Part shown: in pieces, positions 1 through 34,697 of the stretch
How the letters are laid out: the number at the start of each line of letters is the position of its first letter
Position numbering within the stretch: position 1 is the first letter of the stretch
Origin: a virus
DNA length: 34,697 nucleotides
IMG/VR virus record: IMGVR_UViG_3300045741_000098
Span: 1 to 34,697 of that record
Reading direction: 5' to 3' (one strand)
Notes under the pieces: generated by a model
The model's input: the letters and a program-made list of their open reading frames with translations, nothing else
Told to the model about the DNA's origin: nothing
Databases searched by the model: none
Made by a program: the position numbers and the translations under genes

Positions 1-239
1 ACAATGATCAGAGTTCATTGATGCCCTACGATGCCATTATGGATATATTCACCAATACAGTTGAGATCGGACTGAAGTATATGAGTGCAGATATAGCCCG
101 ATTTGGAAAAGATAAGATCACAATTGGTATCTGGGACGGATGGTCTTGTGGTCCGATAGTGATCAAGCAGAAGCAAAGTACGGTTGTAACGGCGGAGGAT
201 ATTCGCAACCTTTCAATTCAGCATCACGTAGCGCAGTCC
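1..239. repeat. Terminal overlap, left copy (circular contig)
   Basis: This block matches 34459-34697 base for base except at 128 (t here, c at 34586) and 152 (t here, a at 34610). Both differences fall at third positions of glycine codons of terL and are silent. The overlap shows that the contig closes into a circle of about 34,458 bp. The opening inside a gene fits an assembly of circularly permuted or circular DNA rather than a physical terminus. The two silent differences suggest the reads came from a mixed population. Confidence 0.95.
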
Positions 240-710
240 CGGATAGTCGTTGATGAGGGAGGAGTGGGCGGAGGCGTTATTGATATGCTAGGTGAGGGTA
301 TTTTGAGTTTTACCGCTAATGCTTCTCCGTTCAAACAGGAGGAAAAGGAAGGATCAAAGAAGATCTACATTCCTCAAAACTACGCTAACCTAAAGGCTCA
401 ATGTGCTTATCTATTTGCCGAGAAAGTAAACGCCCGGATCATAAGAGTAAATACCGAGGACGTTATAATTAAGCAACAGATCATCCAAGAGCTTGAACAG
501 ATCAAAAGAAAAGATCCGGATTCAGACGGAAAGTTAGATCTAGTTCCAAAGGATGTTATAAAAGAAAACATCGGTCGTTCTCCGGATCTATCAGATATGC
601 TCATTATGAGAATGATGTTTGAAGTGAATACAAACAAGCGCCGGCCCAAGAAACTTTACCACGACAATAAAGTTGTCGGTGGAGTTGATTGGGAGGTATT
701 AACCGGATGA
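1..710 (+). CDS. terL: Terminase large subunit, C-terminal part (nuclease domain)
   Basis: C-terminal half of the DNA-packaging terminase. The frame is open at base 1 and continues the fragment that runs off the right end; joined across the overlap the protein is 469 aa, numbered from the ATG at 33759. This half is the RNase H-like nuclease that cuts the DNA concatemer. The expected acidic metal ligands are visible: Asp264 in SADIARFGKDK, Asp318 in VVDEGGVGGG and Asp432 in PDLSDMLIM. A start at the in-frame TTG (18) or ATG (21) would cut the protein in two, so neither is taken as the start. The stop TGA (708-710) overlaps the ATG of the next gene at 707, implying translational coupling. The length and motif spacing fit the P22/Terminase_6-like group. 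Confidence 0.93.
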   Translation, partial: NDQSSLMPYDAIMDIFTNTVEIGLKYMSADIARFGKDKITIGIWDGWSCGPIVIKQKQSTVVTAEDIRNLSIQHHVAQSRIVVDEGGVGGGVIDMLGEGILSFTANASPFKQEEKEGSKKIYIPQNYANLKAQCAYLFAEKVNARIIRVNTEDVIIKQQIIQELEQIKRKDPDSDGKLDLVPKDVIKENIGRSPDLSDMLIMRMMFEVNTNKRRPKKLYHDNKVVGGVDWEVLTG

Positions 711-1009
711 CAATTGTTAGGATGTGTTATCTTCATCAAAAACCGGCAATAAGAATGTCTGAATGTAAAACGTGTAATCCTCCTGCTCCAGATCCTCCAA
801 AATTAGACGTACGATCTGACTTTGAATGGTATGAAGCAAAGATCCTGGAGAATAGAATACGAATGAAAGACCGGTGTAAGCGTTGTTTTTTGAAGTTCAG
901 TAATGATCCTTGTACTTCTCCGGGATGTGGAGTGCACCATCAGAAGGCAAGTTTATTCCGGATAGGCTATTGCCGGGACTGTGAAAGTAAGGTTATCAAC
1001 AGCGATTGA
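707..1009 (+). CDS. Small zinc-ribbon protein downstream of terL
   Basis: 100-aa protein of unknown function. It has four cysteine pairs: Cys20/23 (CKTC), Cys57/60 (CKRC), Cys69/74 and Cys89/92 (CRDC), a pattern typical of zinc ribbons that bind nucleic acid or act as structural clips. I chose the ATG at 707 rather than the upstream in-frame TTG (689) because it overlaps the terL stop as ATGA. A GGAGG at 692-696, inside terL codons, lies ten bases before it; it is one of the few Shine-Dalgarno-like sequences in the window. Position between terminase and portal suggests a packaging or head-assembly accessory role, but this is inference from context. Confidence 0.72.
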   Translation: MTIVRMCYLHQKPAIRMSECKTCNPPAPDPPKLDVRSDFEWYEAKILENRIRMKDRCKRCFLKFSNDPCTSPGCGVHHQKASLFRIGYCRDCESKVINSD

Positions 1010-1033
1010 TTAAAACGTAATTAAGTATATAAT
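1006..1033 (+). promoter_or_regulatory. Promoter, TTGATT-16-TATAAT
   Basis: TTGATT at 1006-1011, a 16-base spacer and TATAAT at 1028-1033. Transcription should start at about 1040, within a couple of bases of the ATG at 1042. The mRNA of the next gene would then be nearly leaderless, in line with other starts in this genome. Confidence 0.6.
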
Positions 1034-1041
1034 AAAAACAG

Positions 1042-1587
1042 ATGATAATTCTTCTAAGTATCATAGCAATTGAGATTGGATCTGTAATTGCTTTTCTTGT
1101 CGTCAAAAATAATCTCTTTGATCCTAAAAAAGTCCGGATTGTAAAACATCTTATCCGCGACTATCAGACTTTGATAATGGAAAATGAGCTTACCGCTCGT
1201 TTTTTGCGTGAGTATGAGATTAACCGGTTAGAAAATATTGTAAGCTATCAGTCCCAGAAGTTAGATGAACGTAAAGCACGACTGAAGTCTGGAATAAATG
1301 ACGAGAAAACAAAGATCAGAGTGAAACGCGATGAGGAAAGATTGGAGGAATACAAGGGCGCGATCATAAAGAACAAAGCCTTTGCCGATAGTATGGATGC
1401 AAAGAACAATATGCTCAATGCCAAGATTGTATTTTACAAACGCACCAACTATTCACGTAATCAACCTAAGCCGGTAACTCCATCAGAAGATATGGAATTC
1501 CAGAATACGGAAACCATACCAGATGAAGCGCCGATTAAAACAGATGACAGTATCAACGCCCACGCTCCCCAAGTCCAGTCTGCCTAA
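1042..1587 (+). CDS. Membrane-anchored coiled-coil protein
   Basis: 181 aa, family not recognised. Residues 2-22 form a hydrophobic segment (MIILLSIIAIEIGSVIAFLV) that should act as a membrane anchor. It is followed by a long charged helical stretch, residues about 30-135, rich in Glu, Lys and Arg and probably a coiled coil, then a Pro/acidic tail. It starts directly behind a strong TATAAT box and has no Shine-Dalgarno sequence. An N-terminal anchor with a cytoplasmic or extracellular coiled coil could serve in superinfection exclusion, in a spanin/holin-like role or in virion assembly at the membrane; the sequence does not decide. Its 3' end overlaps the next gene. Confidence 0.7.
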   Translation: MIILLSIIAIEIGSVIAFLVVKNNLFDPKKVRIVKHLIRDYQTLIMENELTARFLREYEINRLENIVSYQSQKLDERKARLKSGINDEKTKIRVKRDEERLEEYKGAIIKNKAFADSMDAKNNMLNAKIVFYKRTNYSRNQPKPVTPSEDMEFQNTETIPDEAPIKTDDSINAHAPQVQSA

Positions 1588-1783: not shown

Positions 1784-1803
1784 TGTTCTTACGATTGCCG
1801 GTC

Positions 1804-1815
1804 TAAAATCCGGCA
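1804..1815 (+). promoter_or_regulatory. -10 box TAAAAT six bases before ATG
   Basis: TAAAAT at 1804-1809 is followed by exactly six bases and the ATG at 1816. The same spacing occurs before 15438, 20177, 26273 and 32790. No good -35 is visible here, so it is weaker than those examples. Confidence 0.4.
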
Positions 1816-2694
1816 ATGGTAATCACATTATCTGTTCATAGCAGTAAATTTGTGAAAAAACTATTCTTTGGGTTCGTAGTATTGTTCTTTGGCCTGACGT
1901 TGTTTTTGGCCGGAAAAGCATTATTAAATACGTATTATGCTGATAAGTTGGGTGTACCTACCGGCCCTCCTTTCGCAATTAAGAGCGATCTACCCTATAC
2001 CGATCAACAGGAAATTGATCGTCTAGTTAATATTCCGGTAGCCCAAAGAACAGCAAGTGAATCAGCCTGGCTATTGACCAGATCAGTTTATCAATACAAT
2101 TCCATTGTTCTAAAAGATGCCAATAAAAATATAATCATTGCCGAGGGCAATGTTCTTCCTTCCGGAACTTCCGGCTTTACTAAAGGCGCAACATTCCATC
2201 TACTCAATGCTGATTATAATCTCCGAGGCATATATGAGAATACCGGCAATACGGTTAGCTCTGTGTGGAAAGCCATAGGATTGCAAACGGCAACCGTATG
2301 GCTTGCAAGCGCATCCTTTGACACCATAAACACGACACCGGTGGAATTGATACCTGATCCAGGGGATGGAAAAGTCATTGAACTTGAATCTGTTACCGGA
2401 TATAGAGTGTTTGCGTCTGAATCCTGGTCGCCGGCAAGTGTCCTTGATGGCCTTGAAGTTAAATATGATGGAGCAACCGGACTACCTTTGACGGCTTCTT
2501 TCTCGCGTGGCTTCCTTGATGGTGGTGCTTCCGATGTTACCGCTTCACCTTCCTATCAGACAAGATATGCTATTGATGTAAACCGGGCATCTCCTTCCGA
2601 AGCAGTATATCTCACTTCCGGATCTAATCCCTCAATTGATGGTGATACCTACTTCAAGTTTGACGTAATGTATAGAATCGTAGAGCTTCCCTAA
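1816..2694 (+). CDS. Membrane-anchored beta-rich decoration-like protein
   Basis: 292 aa. Residues about 12-34 (FVKKLFFGFVVLFFGLTLFL and on) form a strong transmembrane segment or uncleaved signal anchor. The C-terminal half, from about residue 170 (DPGDGKVIELESVTGYRVFA) to the end (KFDVMYRIVELP), has the rhythm of beta-sandwich domains found in phage decoration or minor capsid proteins. That comparison is from memory and not from a search. A TAAAAT box lies six bases before the ATG, and there is no Shine-Dalgarno sequence. The gene ends one base before the portal gene. A hydrophobic export segment on a head-module protein is unusual; it may be displayed on the cell surface rather than packaged. 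Confidence 0.65.
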   Translation: MVITLSVHSSKFVKKLFFGFVVLFFGLTLFLAGKALLNTYYADKLGVPTGPPFAIKSDLPYTDQQEIDRLVNIPVAQRTASESAWLLTRSVYQYNSIVLKDANKNIIIAEGNVLPSGTSGFTKGATFHLLNADYNLRGIYENTGNTVSSVWKAIGLQTATVWLASASFDTINTTPVELIPDPGDGKVIELESVTGYRVFASESWSPASVLDGLEVKYDGATGLPLTASFSRGFLDGGASDVTASPSYQTRYAIDVNRASPSEAVYLTSGSNPSIDGDTYFKFDVMYRIVELP

Positions 2695-2695
2695 T

Positions 2696-4438
2696 ATGGA
2701 TAATTTCACTCCGACAACACCGGAACAGGATGCAAAGATAAACTCAAAAGCTGATGATAGTGTTTTACTTGATCAGATTGTCCAGGATAAGAACTCCGCT
2801 ATTGAATATCAGAAGCCCCGGCAAGGGCCTTGGACTGAAAACTATAACCTATCGCGTGATCGCGTGGTAAATAATCCACTTGTCCAAAGGCATCCGGTGA
2901 ATGTTCCGCTTATGAAAGAACAGGAACTTGCTTGGTTAGGAAAGATAGATGATATGCCCTCAATATATTTTGATTGCATATCCGATGATCCGGAACTGGC
3001 CCAGAAAAAGGAACTTCTTATCAATGAGTATTGGTCAAAGGAATCAGACCGGTTGAATATACCGATACTTGATTTTGTCGGAAAGCGCGTTGTATTCCAT
3101 ACCGGACGAACTCACGCCAAAATTGGCCTTGTGAATGGTAAATTTATGCTATGGATAACTGATGCCTTTGATGTTGTTGTAGATCCAAAGACTAATCCGA
3201 TGGATATTCAGACCGCTATGCATATTCATAATCTGCATATCTACAAGACACTCAAAGAGATATTAGCCGATCCAACAATCTCAAAAGAAGCAAAGGGCCG
3301 GCTTAATAGCCATCTGGCTACAAATAAGGGTTTATTCAGTACATCCGATACCGTTGATCAGATTAAGGCTAAACTGGAACGCCTGAAGGCATTGAATATC
3401 ACTAACTACGATAAGATTATCGGAACTGATCTTATTATTGACTGTACCGAAACCGTCCGAAAGATCTGGAATCCAAAGACAAACAAGTATGAATTGTTTG
3501 TTATACTTCAGGCATACGATACCGTTATCCTAAAAAAGAGAACAATGCAGGAGGCGTTGGGAATAGACCGCTTTAACTATGCTTCTTGGTGCTATAATCC
3601 CGATACTGAATTATATTGGGAACTTGGGCCGGGAGATATTGCCCGCAATCCAAACAAGATGAGCAACTTGTTCCTCTCTCAATTCTTTGAGAATAGATCT
3701 TTGGCTAACAATCAGATGAATTTCTTTGACGATACCTTTGAGGGTTTTCATCCGGAGGCATTTACGGCCCGACAATTTGGATTTTATGGTGTACCCGGAA
3801 AGCCATCCGATATAATTATGCCTATCAAAGTTGAACCTTTTGACAATGCGATACAGGCAGATCTTGAATATATCCGAGCAATGGCTTCGCGTGGTATGAT
3901 CACAACTGATATAGACAAAGGAATGTCCTCTCCCGGTAATCAAACAAAAGGAGAAATTGAGATATTGGCATCGCGATCCCAGAGGCAAGTAAACAATCTT
4001 CAGAAATTCTATAATCGTTTCTGGCAGGAGATAGCGAACTTCTGGCTTGATCTGGCGATAAATAAGGCTACAATTCTTGATAAAACTCTCCTTACAAAAC
4101 GTGGTAACAATGGGCAATTATATAGCCATAATCTAAAGGTAAAGGATATTAAAAACGATAAAGGCTATGTCGTCCGGGCCGTTCAGATGGCCCAGAAGGA
4201 TGAACAGACAAGAGATACCATCAACAAACTCTCCGTTCTCCGCAATCAATTTATGGATAATCCGGTAGCAATGAATATAATCAAAGAGAAGATGCTTACA
4301 GAATTGAACATATTTACCCCGGACGAGATCAGACAGATAAAGGCAACACTCAAAAATGCTCCGGCAATGCCAATAAATCAAACGCTAAGTACACTAGGCC
4401 AAGCAAACGCGATGGCCGGTGGTAATCCTAATGCCTAA
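2696..4438 (+). CDS. Portal protein (head-tail connector)
   Basis: 580 aa, the usual size for a podovirus portal, which forms the dodecameric ring at one capsid vertex through which DNA is packed and ejected. Family assignment rests on position (between terminase and scaffold/capsid), length and pattern. An N-terminal helical region is followed by a mixed wing region (about 130-260, with DAFDVVVDPKTNPMDIQ), a core about 270-400, and a region rich in Gln/Arg helices (GNQTKGEIEILASRSQRQVN) typical of the portal stem, then a helical C-terminus. It is probably of the P22-like rather than the HK97-like portal group. The ATG lies one base after the previous stop, with no Shine-Dalgarno sequence. 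Confidence 0.8.
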   Translation: MDNFTPTTPEQDAKINSKADDSVLLDQIVQDKNSAIEYQKPRQGPWTENYNLSRDRVVNNPLVQRHPVNVPLMKEQELAWLGKIDDMPSIYFDCISDDPELAQKKELLINEYWSKESDRLNIPILDFVGKRVVFHTGRTHAKIGLVNGKFMLWITDAFDVVVDPKTNPMDIQTAMHIHNLHIYKTLKEILADPTISKEAKGRLNSHLATNKGLFSTSDTVDQIKAKLERLKALNITNYDKIIGTDLIIDCTETVRKIWNPKTNKYELFVILQAYDTVILKKRTMQEALGIDRFNYASWCYNPDTELYWELGPGDIARNPNKMSNLFLSQFFENRSLANNQMNFFDDTFEGFHPEAFTARQFGFYGVPGKPSDIIMPIKVEPFDNAIQADLEYIRAMASRGMITTDIDKGMSSPGNQTKGEIEILASRSQRQVNNLQKFYNRFWQEIANFWLDLAINKATILDKTLLTKRGNNGQLYSHNLKVKDIKNDKGYVVRAVQMAQKDEQTRDTINKLSVLRNQFMDNPVAMNIIKEKMLTELNIFTPDEIRQIKATLKNAPAMPINQTLSTLGQANAMAGGNPNA

Positions 4439-6034: not shown

Positions 6035-7123
6035 ATGACTGGTATGACAAATCTCGGAGAAAAATTCTCCGCGTCCGTTCTTCAGCCGTTCTTTGAGCAA
6101 GCAGTTACTCCCGCAATCACCAATAGTGATTACGAAGGAGCTTTGAGCGCCGGCGGTGCAGATAGAATGAACATCCTTACCTTTGGTACGGTAAACATAG
6201 TTACCTATGCCCAGGGAACACCGATGTCCCTTCAGAATGTTACCGATTCGGAGGCTCAATTGATCCTTTCACAGAAAAAGGCTTTCTATATCGGAATATT
6301 TGATATAGACAAGTTTGAAACCTATGTATCAGATCCGAAATCATCGCTTATGGTACAGGCTTCCGGCTCACTTATGGAGGCAGTTGATAATTATGTCCTC
6401 GGCCTTTATGGTGATGTCGCCTCCGGTAGTTGGGACGGAACTTCCTATACAACTGGAACTGTTACCGTAACAATCACAACTGGAGCTGTCACTGGTAATG
6501 GCACGACCTTTATCGCAGGTATGGTTGGCAAGCCTTTCAAGGCTCAAGGCCATACAAAGTGGTATCGCGTCAAGACATATAATGGTGCGACAGATATAGT
6601 CATTGAGGATGACCTTGATGACGTAGCTTCGCAATATACCGGTGGCACGATTGGCGCGGGTGCAACTTATGAGATCCAAGCTAACACTTCCGTTCAGGTT
6701 ACCAAGAGTAACTTCTACGCGCGTGTATTGGCCCTTAAATTGTTCCTTGATCAGAACAAGATTCCAAAGGCCGACAGATGGCTTGTGATCCCTGCGTGGT
6801 TGGAAAATATCGCCCTTCAAACTACTGAACTTATTCCTGCTGTTCCGGTTGCCTATTCCGATACAGTCCTTAACGGAAATATTGGCAAGGTCGCCAAATT
6901 CAGCGTCTATACTTCAGAACAGATTGCAGGCAATTCTACAACTGGATCTTTTGTTCTCGCCGGACACAAGTCAGCCATCACTTTTGCGATGGGCTTCAAG
7001 AAAGACGGAGTTGAGAATGTAACCGGTGAATTTGAGGAAGCCTATAAAGCTCTTTGGGTTTACGGTGCAAAGATTCCGGATATTCGCAGAAAGGCACTTG
7101 CTCTTGGATTCTGGAAGGCTTAA
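6035..7123 (+). CDS. Major capsid protein (HK97 fold, P22-like)
   Basis: 362 aa. The N-terminal part (residues 1-130) and C-terminal part (220-362, with KVAKFSVYTSEQIA and FVLAGHKSAITFA) follow the pattern of P22-type coat proteins of the HK97 fold, which build the icosahedral shell. An inserted beta domain lies at about residues 135-217 (GTVTVTITTGAVTGNGTTF to GATYEI). A closely similar stand-alone domain is encoded at 20177-20512, so the insert probably works like the P22 I-domain or as a surface decoration. A hairpin (7138-7166) follows the stop. The ATG has no Shine-Dalgarno sequence; ATG 6044 is an alternative start. Confidence 0.85.
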   Translation: MTGMTNLGEKFSASVLQPFFEQAVTPAITNSDYEGALSAGGADRMNILTFGTVNIVTYAQGTPMSLQNVTDSEAQLILSQKKAFYIGIFDIDKFETYVSDPKSSLMVQASGSLMEAVDNYVLGLYGDVASGSWDGTSYTTGTVTVTITTGAVTGNGTTFIAGMVGKPFKAQGHTKWYRVKTYNGATDIVIEDDLDDVASQYTGGTIGAGATYEIQANTSVQVTKSNFYARVLALKLFLDQNKIPKADRWLVIPAWLENIALQTTELIPAVPVAYSDTVLNGNIGKVAKFSVYTSEQIAGNSTTGSFVLAGHKSAITFAMGFKKDGVENVTGEFEEAYKALWVYGAKIPDIRRKALALGFWKA

Positions 7124-15422: not shown

Positions 15423-15431
15423 TGGTATAAT
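15423..15431 (+). promoter_or_regulatory. Extended -10 promoter for the lysis genes
   Basis: TGG followed by TATAAT (15426-15431), then six bases and the ATG at 15438. No clear -35 box is seen, which an extended -10 can tolerate. The predicted mRNA is leaderless. Having its own promoter would let the lysis genes be timed separately from the fibre genes. Confidence 0.55.
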
Positions 15432-15437
15432 AGTAAT

Positions 15438-15734
15438 ATGCTAAACGAAGCCGATATCCCAAAGTTAGAACAATTAACCAATAGTACAACTATAAAAAAT
15501 TTGGGCTATATTGTTGCTATTGTTACTCCTACAATAGCGATAGTAATGGGATATATGGCTTTGGTAAATCGGGTGGAATTGGTGGCACAACAGGTTCAGG
15601 CGGTGGCAAAAGATGTTCAGGAGATAAAGGGCAATCACCTTGTCCACGTTGAAAATAAATTAAATGAATTTCAGACTTCTCTCATAGATCACGATAAAAA
15701 GATTGAACGTATTTTAACAATACTAAAACAATGA
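15438..15734 (+). CDS. XhlA-like membrane/coiled-coil lysis protein
   Basis: 98 aa with one transmembrane segment at about residues 21-43 (LGYIVAIVTPTIAIVMGYMA) followed by a coiled coil (VAQQVQAVAKDVQEIKG, DHDKKIERILTILKQ). This layout resembles hemolysin XhlA-type proteins, although the membrane segment precedes the coiled coil here. Its position directly before the peptidase gene, with a four-base overlap (ATGA), supports a lysis role at the cytoplasmic membrane. It has a separate leaderless promoter. Confidence 0.55.
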   Translation: MLNEADIPKLEQLTNSTTIKNLGYIVAIVTPTIAIVMGYMALVNRVELVAQQVQAVAKDVQEIKGNHLVHVENKLNEFQTSLIDHDKKIERILTILKQ

Positions 15735-19477: not shown

Positions 19478-20145
19478 TGAGTGCAACTATTCAATCAATT
19501 ACAACCGGACAGAGTAACGGGAATTCAGTGGCAATATCGGTTACTCCGGCGGGTTTGAATAGGGCCATATATGTTTTCGTTGGGACTAACGAAATTGGAG
19601 GTACAAATCCTATGTATGTAACCTCGGTGGTCAAAGGATCTCAAAATGGAGTTAAGGTTACTGATGTAATCTATGCCGGACCTAACGATATAAAATGTGA
19701 GGTTTGGAAAATAGTAAATCCCAATACCACGACAGAGAATGTAACCGTTACCTGTACTCAAGGCAACGGAGGTTTGCGGAGTTTATATTGTGCTGTTGTT
19801 TGTATCTCCGGAACAAGTGGTAGGGAAGATGGGACTGCTTCAGAATATAATAGCACCAGTACGCCATCTGTTACTGTTACCTCAAATACCGGCTCAATTG
19901 TTATTGACTGCTTGATGGAAAATACTTCTTACATAGTTACCGAAGGCGGAGGACAGACTAACAGATGGGGACTTCAAATCGGTGGATATACAGACTGGTT
20001 TGATGGATCAAGTGAAGCCGGAGCTTATAGTTCAGTTGTAATGAGCCAGTCCCTTTCCGGATCTCCGCGCTTTTGCCACATTGCTGTTTCTATAAAAGCA
20101 GGTTTTATCATCAGGGGTGAAGGTAATCTATTGCCCTGGGGATGA
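19477..20145 (+). CDS. Beta-rich tail-associated protein
   Basis: 222 aa from the ATG at 19477, preferred to the in-frame ATG at 19441 because it overlaps the previous stop by one base, as at many junctions here. The protein is all-beta with Ser/Thr/Gly-rich strands (AISVTPAGLNRAIYVFVGT, TSNTGSIVIDCLMENTSYI, HIAVSIKAGFIIRG). The general layout resembles small phage appendage or lectin-like domains, but I do not recognise the family. It ends just before the promoter at 20142. Confidence 0.55.
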   Translation: MSATIQSITTGQSNGNSVAISVTPAGLNRAIYVFVGTNEIGGTNPMYVTSVVKGSQNGVKVTDVIYAGPNDIKCEVWKIVNPNTTTENVTVTCTQGNGGLRSLYCAVVCISGTSGREDGTASEYNSTSTPSVTVTSNTGSIVIDCLMENTSYIVTEGGGQTNRWGLQIGGYTDWFDGSSEAGAYSSVVMSQSLSGSPRFCHIAVSIKAGFIIRGEGNLLPWG

Positions 20146-20170
20146 CAAAGTACAAAAAATATAATATAAT
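20142..20170 (+). promoter_or_regulatory. Promoter, ATGACA-17-TATAAT
   Basis: ATGACA at 20142-20147 and TATAAT at 20165-20170 with a 17-base spacer. An overlapping TATAAT occurs at 20160-20165. The second box ends six bases before the ATG at 20177, predicting a leaderless transcript for the ejection-module genes. Confidence 0.6.
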
Positions 20171-20176
20171 AATTCT

Positions 20177-20512
20177 ATGTCCAGGACTATAAAAGGTTTA
20201 ACAGGAACAGTATCGGCAACTCAATATTCGGCTACACTAACCGGGGTAAGTACAGATTGGGATTCAACTCTTGAAGGAAAATATATTAAGATCGGAGTTA
20301 ATGGAAAACGATATACCATTAACAAGGTTAATTCTACGACGTCAATGGAACTGACAAGACGCTATCAAGAGCCTACCTGCTCCGGTGAGTATTTTGAAAT
20401 ACTTGAAAACAGAATGTTTGTTCAACCTAATTTAATTCAAGATCCAGTATCAACTCCGACCTCTGATCCAAATGTTGCGGGCCGTTTCCCTGATTATGAT
20501 GAAACAACATAA
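20177..20512 (+). CDS. Stand-alone beta domain related to the capsid insert
   Basis: 111 aa. Residues 9-76 (GTVSATQYSATLTGVSTDW, YIKIGVNGKRYTINKVNST, SGEYFEI) follow the same order of features as the insert in the major capsid protein: GTV, a TG..T.. turn, a G..IKI/GKPFKA strand, Y.I/YRV, and a closing G..YEI. The protein then has a Pro/Asp-rich tail. Possibly a decoration or tail-head joining protein. It is placed directly behind a strong promoter and before the LysM protein. The similarity was seen by eye; no alignment score was calculated. Confidence 0.6.
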   Translation: MSRTIKGLTGTVSATQYSATLTGVSTDWDSTLEGKYIKIGVNGKRYTINKVNSTTSMELTRRYQEPTCSGEYFEILENRMFVQPNLIQDPVSTPTSDPNVAGRFPDYDETT

Positions 20513-20524
20513 TTTAACAAAACT

Positions 20525-21829
20525 ATGCAAACAATAACTATAAAATCAGGGGACACTCTTTCGGGGATTGCCAAACAGTACGGTGTTGGATTGTCGGAGA
20601 TATTAAGGCTTAATCCGAAGATCACAAATCCAAATCTTATTTATGCCGGATCTGCTTTATCTGTTCCGGATATGCCGGCCGTACCGCCCACTCCGCCGGT
20701 GAATCCTAATGAAAACCTTGATGCTTCCAAATCCGGAAGATATGTTATTGATGCTACAAATGGAATTGATCAGTATGATACGCAGACTAGAAAGAAACTT
20801 ACTCTGGCAGAATCACAGGCACTTGGTCTAAATACTCAATTTATGCCTCGGCAGAATATATCAACCGACTCAAATAGCAACGAACAACAGGTCGGACAAC
20901 CTATCACCGTTAAATCTGTCTTGAAGGGACTTGGCATAACCGCTCCGGGAGTATCGGACGGTACGGCTTTATCGGAAGCAAAGACTAAACTTGAAACCGC
21001 GCAACAGGCTTTGGATGAATTCAATACAAAACTCACTAAAGACCTATCCGGAATAGACAATAATCCGTTCCTTGTTTCATCGGAAATTCTTGGCGAAAAG
21101 AGAAGGGTAATTAACGATAATCAGGATATGCTAAAAACATTGACTGATAACGTGAATAAGTCTCAGGCGCTTTATAATTCCGTTGTTGATGCCCAGAATA
21201 AACAGAATGATCTAAGTTATAAATATACTACCCTGGCAATGGATGAGATTAAACGTCAAGCTGATCAGGCTTATAAAACACTCCAGGAATCAAACAAAAC
21301 CGCACAAGACAAAGCGCAATACGATATAGACATTCAGAAGCTCCGGAACGAAACTCCGGCAGGTCAATCATTCACTATTGGCGGAAAGACATATACCGGC
21401 CTTAAATCTACTACCGGATCTAGCACGGCGACAAAGACATATCAGAATCGCCTGGCTGATGAAGTTAAAAATGTATATTCCGGTATGTATGGATATTCTG
21501 GCGATGCGCGAGAAAAAGCCCTGAAGGTTTTGCAATCTGAATTCCCGAATATGAATACTCAAGATCTGTATAATAAACTTCCGGATGGCTTTGAATATAA
21601 CATTGGAAGCAACAAGATCACTCTGTCTGAAGCAAAAACGCGTGGGTTACCATCTAGCGTGGTGGGATTAAGCGAAGCCCAGATAGCTCAAGACATAGAC
21701 AAGCCCGATCCGGCTCAATGGTTTATAACTTCCCTAAAAGAGAATGGAATCACCGATCCGGCAGAAGTGTCAAAGCGTTGGACGTTGTTAAAACAACTAA
21801 AATCTTCAAGTTCTGGTAGAGAATTTTAA
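20525..21829 (+). CDS. LysM-domain virion/ejection protein
   Basis: 434 aa. Residues 3-47 are a clear LysM peptidoglycan-binding domain ([20 protein letters not shown], then [20 protein letters not shown]). A Pro-rich linker is followed by long helices at about 140-270 ([38 protein letters not shown]) that should form coiled coils, and a mixed C-terminus. There is no signal peptide. Lying immediately before the giant lysozyme-domain protein, it probably belongs to the internal/ejected set that crosses the wall during DNA entry, with LysM holding the complex at peptidoglycan. Confidence 0.65.
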
Positions 21830-26238: not shown

Positions 26239-26266
26239 TTGACTTTACAATTGAGCCTGCTAAAAT
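26239..26266 (+). promoter_or_regulatory. Strong promoter TTGACT-16-TAAAAT
   Basis: TTGACT at 26239-26244, a 16-base spacer and TAAAAT at 26261-26266, six bases before the ATG at 26273. It is the best -35/-10 pair in the window and would start the early/recombination operon with a leaderless mRNA. Confidence 0.7.
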
Positions 26267-26272
26267 GAGTAT

Positions 26273-26452
26273 ATGAGAATTGAAAAAACGGTACGAAATC
26301 AATTCATCAAAAATCTTTGGAGATCCGGAGTATATTCCATCTCGGAGATTGTGAACGAACTGATCCGGAACGGTTTTGAGAAAGTATCTCGTAACCGGAT
26401 TCAACAGTTAGTTAGAGGAGTTGATTCACCTAGAAGGCGTACCAAAAAATAA
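26273..26452 (+). CDS. 59-aa helix-turn-helix protein
   Basis: Small basic protein with a likely HTH at about residues 18-49: SGVYSISEIVNEL is followed by a turn and the recognition-helix-like KVSRNRIQQLVRG. The tail is SPRRRTKK. It is the first gene after the strong promoter and the operator-like dyad, so it is a likely transcription regulator of the early region, perhaps of its own promoter. The start is fixed by the promoter: the ATG is six bases after the -10 box, and the upstream ATG at 26265 runs into a stop after three codons. Confidence 0.65.
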   Translation: MRIEKTVRNQFIKNLWRSGVYSISEIVNELIRNGFEKVSRNRIQQLVRGVDSPRRRTKK

Positions 26453-28387: not shown

Positions 28388-28500
28388 GTATGTGGAGATT
28401 AAATCTCCGGGCGTTATTAGCAGACGATACTTGCAAAACCTTTTGGAAGTATTGTCATAAGCCCTAAAAAGCTTATGCTAATACGCCCAAAGGGTTTTTT
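28388..28500 (+). ncRNA. Probable structured small RNA (three-way junction)
   Basis: From the promoter the sequence first gives a hairpin (28394-28408), then a closing stem GGGCGTTATTAGCA (28409-28422) with TGCTAATACGCCC (28476-28488) with one bulge. Inside it are two hairpins, 28423-28432 with 28447-28456 (ten pairs, one G-T) and ATAAGC/GCTTAT (28457-28462, 28471-28476). Six T at 28495-28500 end it. There is no long reading frame inside. The promoter, compact fold and T-run support an independent RNA of about 110 bases. I do not match it to a known class; it is not a tRNA (no T-loop). Confidence 0.55.
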
Positions 28501-28504
28501 CTTC

Positions 28505-28545
28505 GGCAGGGTTCGCAATGCCCACGTTTCCCGAAAGGGTTTGCC
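28505..28545 (+). other. Small branched hairpin set
   Basis: GGCA (28505-28508) pairs with TGCC (28542-28545), enclosing GGG/CCC (28509-28511, 28521-28523) and CCC-GAAA-GGG (28530-28539), the latter with a GNRA tetraloop. The stems are short, so this could be chance. Confidence 0.3.
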
Positions 28546-28593
28546 AGTAATAGACGTTCAGCCATTGCCCCATTGACACCTATACTGAATGAG

Positions 28594-28699
28594 AAAAGTT
28601 GAGAGTTGATTATCTGGTGCGGGGGGTTAGGAATAAGTATATTTTTCCTGAAAGATATACTTATCCCCCCTCATCAGATAATCAATTTTCTCAATTTTT
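28594..28699. repeat. 106-base imperfect inverted repeat
   Basis: Four stacked segments pair: 28594-28604 with 28689-28699 (11, one G-T), 28606-28619 with 28672-28685 (14, one G-T), GGGGGG at 28621-28626 with CCCCCC at 28665-28670, and ATAAGTATAT (28633-28642) with ATATACTTAT (28655-28664). The tip loop is 12 bases. About 41 pairs in all, with a T-run at the 3' end. It can act as a bidirectional terminator, a cruciform or a replication-related site; the sequence does not choose. Confidence 0.6.
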
Positions 28700-31108: not shown

Positions 31109-31207
31109 ATGATTACAAAAAAAGAAGTATTAGACAATTTGGAGCAAGTGAAGGCTGTAATAAAAGACATACTCATAAGGGATTCTCTTGTGAAATATGA
31201 GAATTAA
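31109..31207 (+). CDS. Candidate 32-aa peptide
   Basis: Short helical peptide (MITKKEVLDNLEQVKAVIKD and on), in the five-base-spaced position typical of this genome after the previous stop. Its end abuts a repeated promoter block (31203). Coding is plausible from spacing and lack of stops, but the length makes it weak. Confidence 0.4.
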   Translation: MITKKEVLDNLEQVKAVIKDILIRDSLVKYEN

Positions 31208-31232
31208 AGTATAATCCAATAAACATATATGA
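31203..31232 (+). promoter_or_regulatory. Repeated promoter-start block, copy 1
   Basis: A 30-base block with TATAAT at 31210-31215 and the ATG of the next gene at 31229. Copy 2 (31680-31709) differs at one base. The 13-base gap from -10 to ATG leaves a leader of only about six bases. Confidence 0.6.
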
Positions 31233-31546
31233 GAAACATTCTTAATCAAATAAAGTGGGCCTACCAGAGAGTAGTTAGGGGCTATGACGACAGGATTAAG
31301 TGGGGGTTTGATACCTACCTTGAGGATATTGTTATGAAGCCATTAAGAGAGTTTTGTACCGAGGAATTGGTAGACAATCAAGATGATACAAGAGCAATCA
31401 TATATCCCGAAACCATAAGACTGATAGATGAATATGCAAAGGCAAAAGAGGGATTGTTTACGACTGTCACACGGAAAGATGTTTACACTATGCAGTATAA
31501 GATGTGGAAATATATAGTAGAGAAGATAGGATATTACTGGAATTAA
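31229..31546 (+). CDS. Small conserved-looking phage protein
   Basis: 105 aa, aromatic and charged (KWAYQRVVRGYDDRIKWGFD; VMKPLREFCTEELVDN). The WAYQRVVRGYDDR motif is one I have seen in phage proteins of unknown function, so a conserved family is likely, but I cannot name it. It has its own promoter block. After the stop, CCTCGTGCC (31548-31556) follows; the same string follows the gene at 31706. Confidence 0.6.
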   Translation: MRNILNQIKWAYQRVVRGYDDRIKWGFDTYLEDIVMKPLREFCTEELVDNQDDTRAIIYPETIRLIDEYAKAKEGLFTTVTRKDVYTMQYKMWKYIVEKIGYYWN

Positions 31547-31569: not shown

Positions 31570-31713
31570 ATGATTACCCTCTTAAAACGCCTCGCCTATT
31601 ATCTCCTAAAGTGGGCCTATCATTCGGAGAACTGGAAGCAGATGAGAAGCATCAGAGTAAATAGAGAGTGGGCCGAAGGATTAAAGTATAATCCAAGAAA
31701 CATATATGACTAA
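31570..31713 (+). CDS. Small basic protein in the cassette
   Basis: 47 aa from ATG 31570 (an in-frame ATG at 31504 lies inside the preceding gene). Helical and basic (MITLLKRLAYYLLKWAYHSE; SIRVNREWAEGLKYNPRN). The sequence coding LKYNPRNIY carries the second promoter block. The N-terminal YYLLKWAY helix is amphipathic and may touch the membrane. No family recognised. Confidence 0.45.
   Translation: MITLLKRLAYYLLKWAYHSENWKQMRSIRVNREWAEGLKYNPRNIYD
31680..31709 (+). promoter_or_regulatory. Repeated promoter-start block, copy 2
   Basis: Matches 31203-31232 in 29 of 30 bases, with TATAAT at 31687-31692 and ATG at 31706 at the same 13-base distance. It is embedded in the 3' end of the preceding gene. 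Confidence 0.6.
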
Positions 31714-32774: not shown

Positions 32775-32783
32775 TGGTATAAT
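32775..32783 (+). promoter_or_regulatory. Extended -10 promoter for the leader peptide
   Basis: TGG plus TATAAT (32778-32783), six bases before ATG 32790. The TTGACT at 32759 stands only 13 bases before it, too close for a standard -35, so the extended -10 probably carries the activity. Confidence 0.55.
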
Positions 32784-32789
32784 TAGGAT

Positions 32790-32849
32790 ATGCGCAAGAC
32801 AAATCAAAAAATAAGAGTTTTGAACCGGCGAATATCCAACATTAAGTAG
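32790..32849 (+). CDS. 19-aa leader peptide overlapping a terminator
   Basis: MRKTNQKIRVLNRRISNIK, leaderless start behind the promoter at 32778. The terminator's 5' arm (32823-32831) lies within the codons and the stop (32847-32849) falls just before the 3' arm. A ribosome moving to the stop would cover the 5' arm and prevent the terminator from forming, which is how attenuators of this type work. It is rich in Lys, Arg and Asn. Translation is inferred. Confidence 0.45.
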   Translation: MRKTNQKIRVLNRRISNIK

Positions 32850-32863
32850 GTCGCCGGTTTTTT
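32823..32863 (+). terminator. Terminator/attenuator before the HExxH gene
   Basis: AACCGGCGA (32823-32831) pairs perfectly with TCGCCGGTT (32851-32859) and is followed by T through 32863. It lies only about 40 bases after its own promoter, so it stops early transcripts unless they are released; read-through would reach the packaging operon. Confidence 0.75.
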
Positions 32864-32871
32864 ACAAAGCA

Positions 32872-33832: not shown

Positions 33833-34697
33833 TATACTTATGTTCGGTGGTGGCGCAGGCGGTGGCAAATCCTGGCTAGGTTGTCTTTGGCTAATTCTAA
33901 TGTCCCTGGCTTTTCCGGGGATTAAATCTTTTATAGCGCGCGATGAGCTAAAGAAGATAATGCAAACCACATTCCTGACGTTCTGTAAGGTATGCCAATC
34001 TCTTGGAATCCCGGCAAATGAGTGGAAATTAAACGGCCAATATAACTATATTCAGTTCCGGAACGGTAGCAGAATAGATCTATTGGACGTAGGCTATATG
34101 CCCTCTGATCCGTTATACGAGCGTTTTGGGTCATCTGAATATACCTTTGGATGGATAGAAGAAGGCGGAGATGTCCATTTTGGAGCTTTTGATATTCTCA
34201 AAACGAGAATTGGACGACACCTTAACGATAAATACGGCCTTGTCCGGAAGCTCCTTATCACCGGTAACCCTTCAAAAAACTGGCAATATCTTCTTTTCTA
34301 TAAACCGAACCGGGAAGGAAAGTTACCGGGCAATCACGCGTTTATTCAATCTTTGGTGGATGATAACTATTTTGGTGAAGCCGGATATAAGGATGCTTTG
34401 CTATCAATAACTGATCCGGTACAGAAGGAAAGACTGTTGCGGGGCAATTGGGAATATGACAATGATCAGAGTTCATTGATGCCCTACGATGCCATTATGG
34501 ATATATTCACCAATACAGTTGAGATCGGACTGAAGTATATGAGTGCAGATATAGCCCGATTTGGAAAAGATAAGATCACAATTGGCATCTGGGACGGATG
34601 GTCTTGTGGACCGATAGTGATCAAGCAGAAGCAAAGTACGGTTGTAACGGCGGAGGATATTCGCAACCTTTCAATTCAGCATCACGTAGCGCAGTCC
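33759..34697 (+). CDS. terL: Terminase large subunit, N-terminal part (ATPase); continues at base 1
   Basis: Start of the 469-aa terminase; runs off the right edge and continues in phase at base 1. Residues 30-38 GGGAGGGKS are Walker A with Lys37, and W132-I-E-E-G (Glu134/135) is Walker B, so this is the motor ATPase that pumps DNA into the capsid. ATG 33759 is chosen because MATLKPTVTIKQGEALEILR precedes the ATPase core at the usual distance and the next in-frame ATG would remove the start of the fold. The gene overlaps terS by 74 bases. The translated C-terminal end here (34459-34697) duplicates 1-239. Confidence 0.93.
   Translation, partial: MATLKPTVTIKQGEALEILRNQQTNILMFGGGAGGGKSWLGCLWLILMSLAFPGIKSFIARDELKKIMQTTFLTFCKVCQSLGIPANEWKLNGQYNYIQFRNGSRIDLLDVGYMPSDPLYERFGSSEYTFGWIEEGGDVHFGAFDILKTRIGRHLNDKYGLVRKLLITGNPSKNWQYLLFYKPNREGKLPGNHAFIQSLVDDNYFGEAGYKDALLSITDPVQKERLLRGNWEYDNDQSSLMPYDAIMDIFTNTVEIGLKYMSADIARFGKDKITIGIWDGWSCGPIVIKQKQSTVVTAEDIRNLSIQHHVAQS
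34459..34697. repeat. Terminal overlap, right copy
   Basis: Right-hand copy of the 239-base overlap (see 1-239), differing at two silent terL positions. The terL reading frame passes through it without a shift, so the two ends join in phase. Confidence 0.95.

Follow-up and report, generated by a model that had tools for sequence, protein, structure and literature searches.

Spacing of promoter and ATG points to leaderless messages in a tailed phage with a probable patescibacterial host

In a 34,697-nt viral contig from IMG/VR (IMGVR_UViG_3300045741_000098), the whole of which was analysed here and is referred to as the window, sigma-70-type -10 hexamers end six bases, or nearly so, before the ATG of several genes, and Shine-Dalgarno (SD) sequences are almost entirely lacking. 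This spacing is conserved in a diverged relative, and the same geometry is enriched in a family of Patescibacteria that harbours a related prophage. On this sequence evidence it is well supported that four to five transcription units of the phage would be leaderless or nearly so, and we consider the reading as a whole, which combines leaderless promoters with a probable host among the Patescibacteria, to be likely correct.

The window is a tailed-phage genome. As its ends share a direct overlap of 239 bp (1-239 and 34459-34697), the map is circular or circularly permuted with a length of 34,458 bp, and two mismatches between the repeats, at positions 128 and 152, appear to show some strain variation. 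All 45 gene starts considered are located on the plus strand. The gene for the large terminase subunit (TerL, 469 aa) spans the contig junction (33759..34458, then 1-710, plus strand), and the major capsid protein is encoded at 6035..7123 (plus strand). Between the terminase and capsid genes lies a reading frame (2696..4438, plus strand) whose product is common to two cellular prophage loci described below and is 28.5% identical to a relative from such a locus (E about 1e-67). Searches of Pfam and PHROG gave no match for this protein; its gene position suggests a portal, and we refer to it as the portal-position protein. Other recognisable products are a small terminase subunit, an Erf annealing protein, a YqaJ exonuclease, NinB and a Holliday-junction resolvase, while neither Rfam nor a tRNA search gave a match in the window.

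A sequence-only reading had reported the pattern TAWAAT-N6-ATG at five ATGs, and it is indeed present at 1816, 15438, 20177, 26273 and 32790, with the first base of the hexamer at 1804, 15426, 20165, 26261 and 32778 on the plus strand; the near case at 1042, TATAAT-N8-ATG, is likewise there. Counted on both strands, the pattern occurs six times against 1.76 expected from dinucleotide shuffles, and none of 100 shuffles reached six. As the letter-reversed control pattern is found four times on the plus strand of the window, however, raw whole-window counts are weak and only moderately unusual. These control hits, and the site at 1816 that turned out to be such a coincidence (see below), are what one would expect if TATAAT fell near ATG by chance in AT-rich intergenic DNA. 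Chance does not account for an excess that is specific to one position at gene starts: TAWAAT stands at a distance (d) of exactly six bases at 5 of 45 starts, as compared to a per-position rate of 0.6% elsewhere upstream (P=8.5e-6, or about 3e-4 allowing for 41 distances, and weaker by roughly twentyfold if the 19-aa ORF at 32790 is left out). With the independent conservation of the sites added to this excess, we regard a chance origin as very improbable. Further promoter elements accompany the hexamer in the sequence at 26273 (TTGACT-16), 1042 (TTGATT-16) and 15438 (extended -10). Note that at the five sites the hexamer reads TATAAT or TAAAAT with no TTTG following, as a Bacteroidota-type -7 box (TAnnTTTG) would have it.

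The relative in which conservation was assessed, independently of the eye that had first picked out the sites, is the 62-kb IMG/VR contig IMGVR_UViG_3300037851_000300 (G001), with TerL and capsid proteins 74% and 79% identical to those of the window. At ATG 26273, the start of a 59-aa ORF, the putative promoter (26239..26275, plus strand) consists of TTGACT (26239-26244), a 16-bp spacer and TAAAAT (26261-26266) followed by 6 bp, and the orthologous gene in G001 retains TTGACT-16-TAAAAT-6-ATG while bases of spacer and discriminator differ. An extended -10 element, TGGTATAAT (15423..15440, plus strand), ends 6 nt before ATG 15438 of a 98-aa ORF, and the string TGGTATAATAGTAATATG at this start is identical in G001 although the encoded proteins are only about 40% identical. 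For the 111-aa ORF starting at 20177, ATGACA-17-TATAAT (20142..20179, plus strand) ends 6 nt before the ATG, and TATAATAATTTTATG is retained in G001, at 21712, with the same six-base gap. The 181-aa ORF at 1042 is preceded by TTGATT-16-TATAAT (1006..1044, plus strand), which ends 8 nt before the ATG, and its counterpart reads TTGATT-16-TAAAAT-8-ATG. Finally, TATAAT ends 6 nt before the 19-aa ORF at 32790-32849 (feature 32778..32849, plus strand), with a gap of 5 rather than 6 nt in G001. The distance from -10 box to ATG is thus kept within one base at five starts and is exactly six at three of them, and at 26273 and 1042 both the -35 box and its 16-bp spacing are retained. On the plus strand of G001, TAWAAT-N6-ATG occurs four times, and three of the four are these orthologous starts.

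The claim of a leaderless start at 1816 was not borne out, and the site was rejected. Here a conserved hairpin, TTGCCGGtctaaaatCCGGCAA (1786..1826, plus strand; fold z -6.5), has TAAAAT as its loop and lies between an ORF ending at 1783 and one starting near 1816/1852; G001 has a counterpart of the hairpin, and the orthologous place there is devoid of an ATG. The GTG at 1852 may be the true start of this ORF. Elsewhere, two near-identical segments, AAAGTATAATCCAAxAAACATATATG (31206-31231 and 31683-31708), each stand before a small ORF and look like an apparent duplication of a promoter-start unit.

With AGGA, GGAG or GAGG at -18..-4 counted as SD-like, a single start of 45, at 707, carries such a 4-mer and none of the leaderless candidates does, in keeping with the earlier statement that nearly all starts lack an SD sequence. 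The observation that many ATGs closely follow the previous stop also stands, as 24 of 44 starts overlap it or lie within 6 nt. Because most starts outside the leaderless set abut or overlap the previous gene, translational coupling is indicated, and most other starts of the phage are probably reached in this way. To speak of one coherent initiation system, as had been done, was therefore too broad: leaderless transcription fits only some 5 of the 45 starts, and most of the others look coupled.

In searches with a capsid profile, full-length cellular relatives were found only in two Patescibacteria genomes among those searched, G381 (E 3e-111) and G422 (8e-96), and 296 Bacteroidota genomes yielded only partial, weak matches in two of them. 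The locus in G381 is an integrated prophage with a tyrosine integrase, TerL (47%), the portal-position protein, a scaffold-position protein and the capsid, and it adjoins cellular genes for a membrane protein and a mannosyltransferase. The TerL family is mixed, being widespread in Bacteroidota and also present in Patescibacteria. Its best match among annotated phages is Bacteroides phage Versailles (ON453897), with 48% identity over the full length and 54.5% in the best segment, slightly closer than the TerL of G381; within the 40.8 kb of Versailles compared, no protein of the window other than TerL was matched. A host assignment from TerL alone was thus rejected, as the family is split between two phyla and the likeness to Versailles is confined to this protein. 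Codon usage did not discriminate either, as its correlation with that of the window is as high for Bacteroides as for G001, and viral contigs scanned singly with the capsid and portal-position proteins gave no match. We conclude that the host is most likely a patescibacterium. It need not belong to the family of G381, because the 29 kb of the related prophage that were checked lack such a promoter-ATG arrangement at any recognisable gene, and three of six ORFs around its capsid gene carry SD-like 4-mers. Among named 16S sequences, the one closest to G381 comes from a Shapirobacteria MAG and shares only 73% identity with it.

The genome of this lysogen (0.99 Mb) shows the geometry in bulk. Among 935 naively called ORFs (first ATG, at least 80 aa), a -10 hexamer lies exactly six bases before the ATG in 14.0%. 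The share is 0.9% for a gap of five bases and 2.8% for one of seven, and among internal ATGs it is 0.2%. Gene calling is not required for this result, as ATG comes directly after TATAAT-N6 in 60 cases where 10.8 would be expected (5.5x); with GTG, TTG or CTG in place of ATG there is no excess. The sites are further enriched for TTG at -35 with a 17-bp spacer (13.5% vs 3.1%; 17-18 bp spacers are enriched) and for TGn (32% vs 8%). The excess at d=6 peaks at genes separated by 10-49 bp from a preceding gene on the same strand (35%) and is nearly absent from overlapping or nearly touching genes (1.7%), whose starts carry SD-like 4-mers in 25% of cases against a background of about 11%. In the 61 genomes of the G381 family, TATAAT-N6-ATG was counted 2933 times against 733 for reversed-pattern controls, with at least a twofold ratio in 59 of 61, so that leaderless messages look normal for starting genes in a family whose members commonly share the arrangement. 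Across the phylum, 145 genomes gave 3401 sites against 1494 controls, with a ratio of at most 1.2 in 28 genomes. A peak at d=6 also emerges when two more genomes, G120 and G1066, are profiled by gene. In G120 (L213-L220, about 0.7 Mb), 124 sites stand against 10 controls and 44% of starts are SD-like, such that this genome appears to use both initiation modes heavily. A Shapirobacteria MAG and an Amazon Paceibacterota MAG showed clear SD use in small samples, and neither an E. coli sample nor the samples from 20 Bacteroidota loci had a peak at d=6. As some Patescibacteria show the peak and others clear SD use, the geometry is lineage-dependent and coexists with SD initiation. The sequence-only reading had pointed to related phages and host genes as the places to look, and the spacing is retained in the one and the geometry enriched in the other. 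Its hint at a host lineage that rarely uses SD sequences stands in part: the family has the leaderless geometry genome-wide, but G381 has an intact anti-SD at its 16S 3' end and some SD use inside operons, and other Patescibacteria sampled often use SD.

These profiles bear on two further explanations. The promoters might be real but place a few leader nucleotides before the AUG, or the genes might be read mainly from promoters upstream, with strictly leaderless translation a minor route; the retained 8-nt spacing at 1042, a TATAAT 13 nt upstream of 31229 with a similar near-copy before 31706, and the frequent overlap or abutment of starts with the previous stop fit this. It would not predict the sharp maximum at d=6 over d=7 in G381, nor the exact conservation of six bases at three phage sites, and we consider it unlikely, if the most serious competitor. 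Alternatively, the TATAAT-like element could act in translation, as an A/T-rich element that is Kozak-like or bound by S1, in a host that does without SD, for instance a member of the Bacteroidota. The lack of SD sequences and the A-rich bases directly before the ATG do resemble Bacteroidota starts, and the TerL family is widespread in that phylum. Nevertheless, a peak at a single spacing is not a diffuse A/T bias, -35 and extended -10 elements are enriched alongside it, the 20 Bacteroidota loci have no such peak, and the capsid relatives are found in Patescibacteria, all of which renders a translation element improbable. Initiation in Flavobacterium johnsoniae (PMC6847099) is similar in that SD sequences are lacking despite an intact anti-SD, which here is that of the related lysogen, but differs from the present case, where a sigma-70 -10 box stands at a fixed distance from the ATG.

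The leaderless reading has close precedents. A published criterion for leaderless bacterial genes is a -10 box spaced such that the transcription start coincides with the start codon (PMC3160421). In the TA-led genes of Deinococcus-Thermus and Actinobacteria (Zheng et al. 2011, PMC3160421; leaderless class of GeneMarkS-2, described in PMC9581028), the first T of TANNNT/TATAAT likewise lies about 12 bp before the start codon with six bases between, and such starts are without SD in genomes that use SD elsewhere. Different here are the setting, a phage and Patescibacteria, the G+C content of about 42%, and the restriction of the excess in lysogen G381 to ATG, with none for GTG. The kind as such is already known, since predictions assign leaderless transcription to roughly one bacterial species in five (Lomsadze 2018, as cited in PMC9581028).

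We envisage that RNA polymerase, bound at a -10 box 6 nt before the ATG (5-8 nt across both phages) at 15438, 20177, 26273 and 32790, and almost so at 1042, would initiate about 7 nt downstream of the box. With ordinary sigma-70 spacing and a six-base gap, this start would coincide with the A of the ATG, and across these sites it would fall on the AUG or no more than about two bases away. The product would be a leaderless mRNA, on whose 5'-terminal AUG ribosomes would begin without SD pairing, a mode of initiation that is established for leaderless mRNAs in other systems. Downstream genes on each transcript would mostly be reached by termination-reinitiation. The phage would thereby follow the habit of its host group, of which the family of the related lysogen gives the example.

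The packaging genes are preceded by the ORF at 32790, which is 19 aa long in the window and likewise in G001 (MRIVNQKIRVLKLGRSNIK). The 3' end of this ORF is overlapped by a terminator-like hairpin, AACCGGCGA...TCGCCGGTTTTTT (32823..32865, plus strand; -19.4 kcal/mol; z -3.3 in the window). G001 has a similar hairpin in which bases are changed, with z -1.15. A 19-codon ORF on an intrinsic terminator could be a translation-dependent attenuator. Separately, a structured non-coding RNA candidate was noted at 28390-28600 (plus strand; about 31230-31440 in G001). It comprises the hairpin GAGATTAAATCTC, a three-way junction closed by gggcgttattagc/gctaatacgccc and the terminator CCCAAAGGGTTTTTT, before which stands TGTGGTATAGT (fold z -6.45). 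In G001 the hairpin loops are largely retained and the closing stem is changed on both sides; Rfam gave no match for the candidate. Downstream of it lies another conserved block, GGGTTCGCAAYGCCCACGTTTC ... AATAGACGTTCAGC.

Patescibacteria are a large and mostly uncultured radiation with reduced ribosomes. In the open-access literature searched, we found no report of leaderless mRNAs in Patescibacteria, CPR or Saccharibacteria, and their abundance in this group and their use by such a phage look unreported in that literature. Tentatively, as a proposal that comes close to an even call, leaderless transcription may be a main start mode for transcript-leading genes across entire families of Patescibacteria. 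Their phages would be adapted to it, and the conserved 19-codon ORF that is leaderless and lies on a terminator could be part of this, as a possible attenuator that senses translation from 5'-terminal AUGs. If one family does start many of its genes on leaderless mRNAs, gene finders tuned to SD sequences would misplace starts there, and initiation on a minimal ribosome becomes testable. The spacing of promoter and ATG is, moreover, a sequence signature that may help to match uncultured phages to their hosts.
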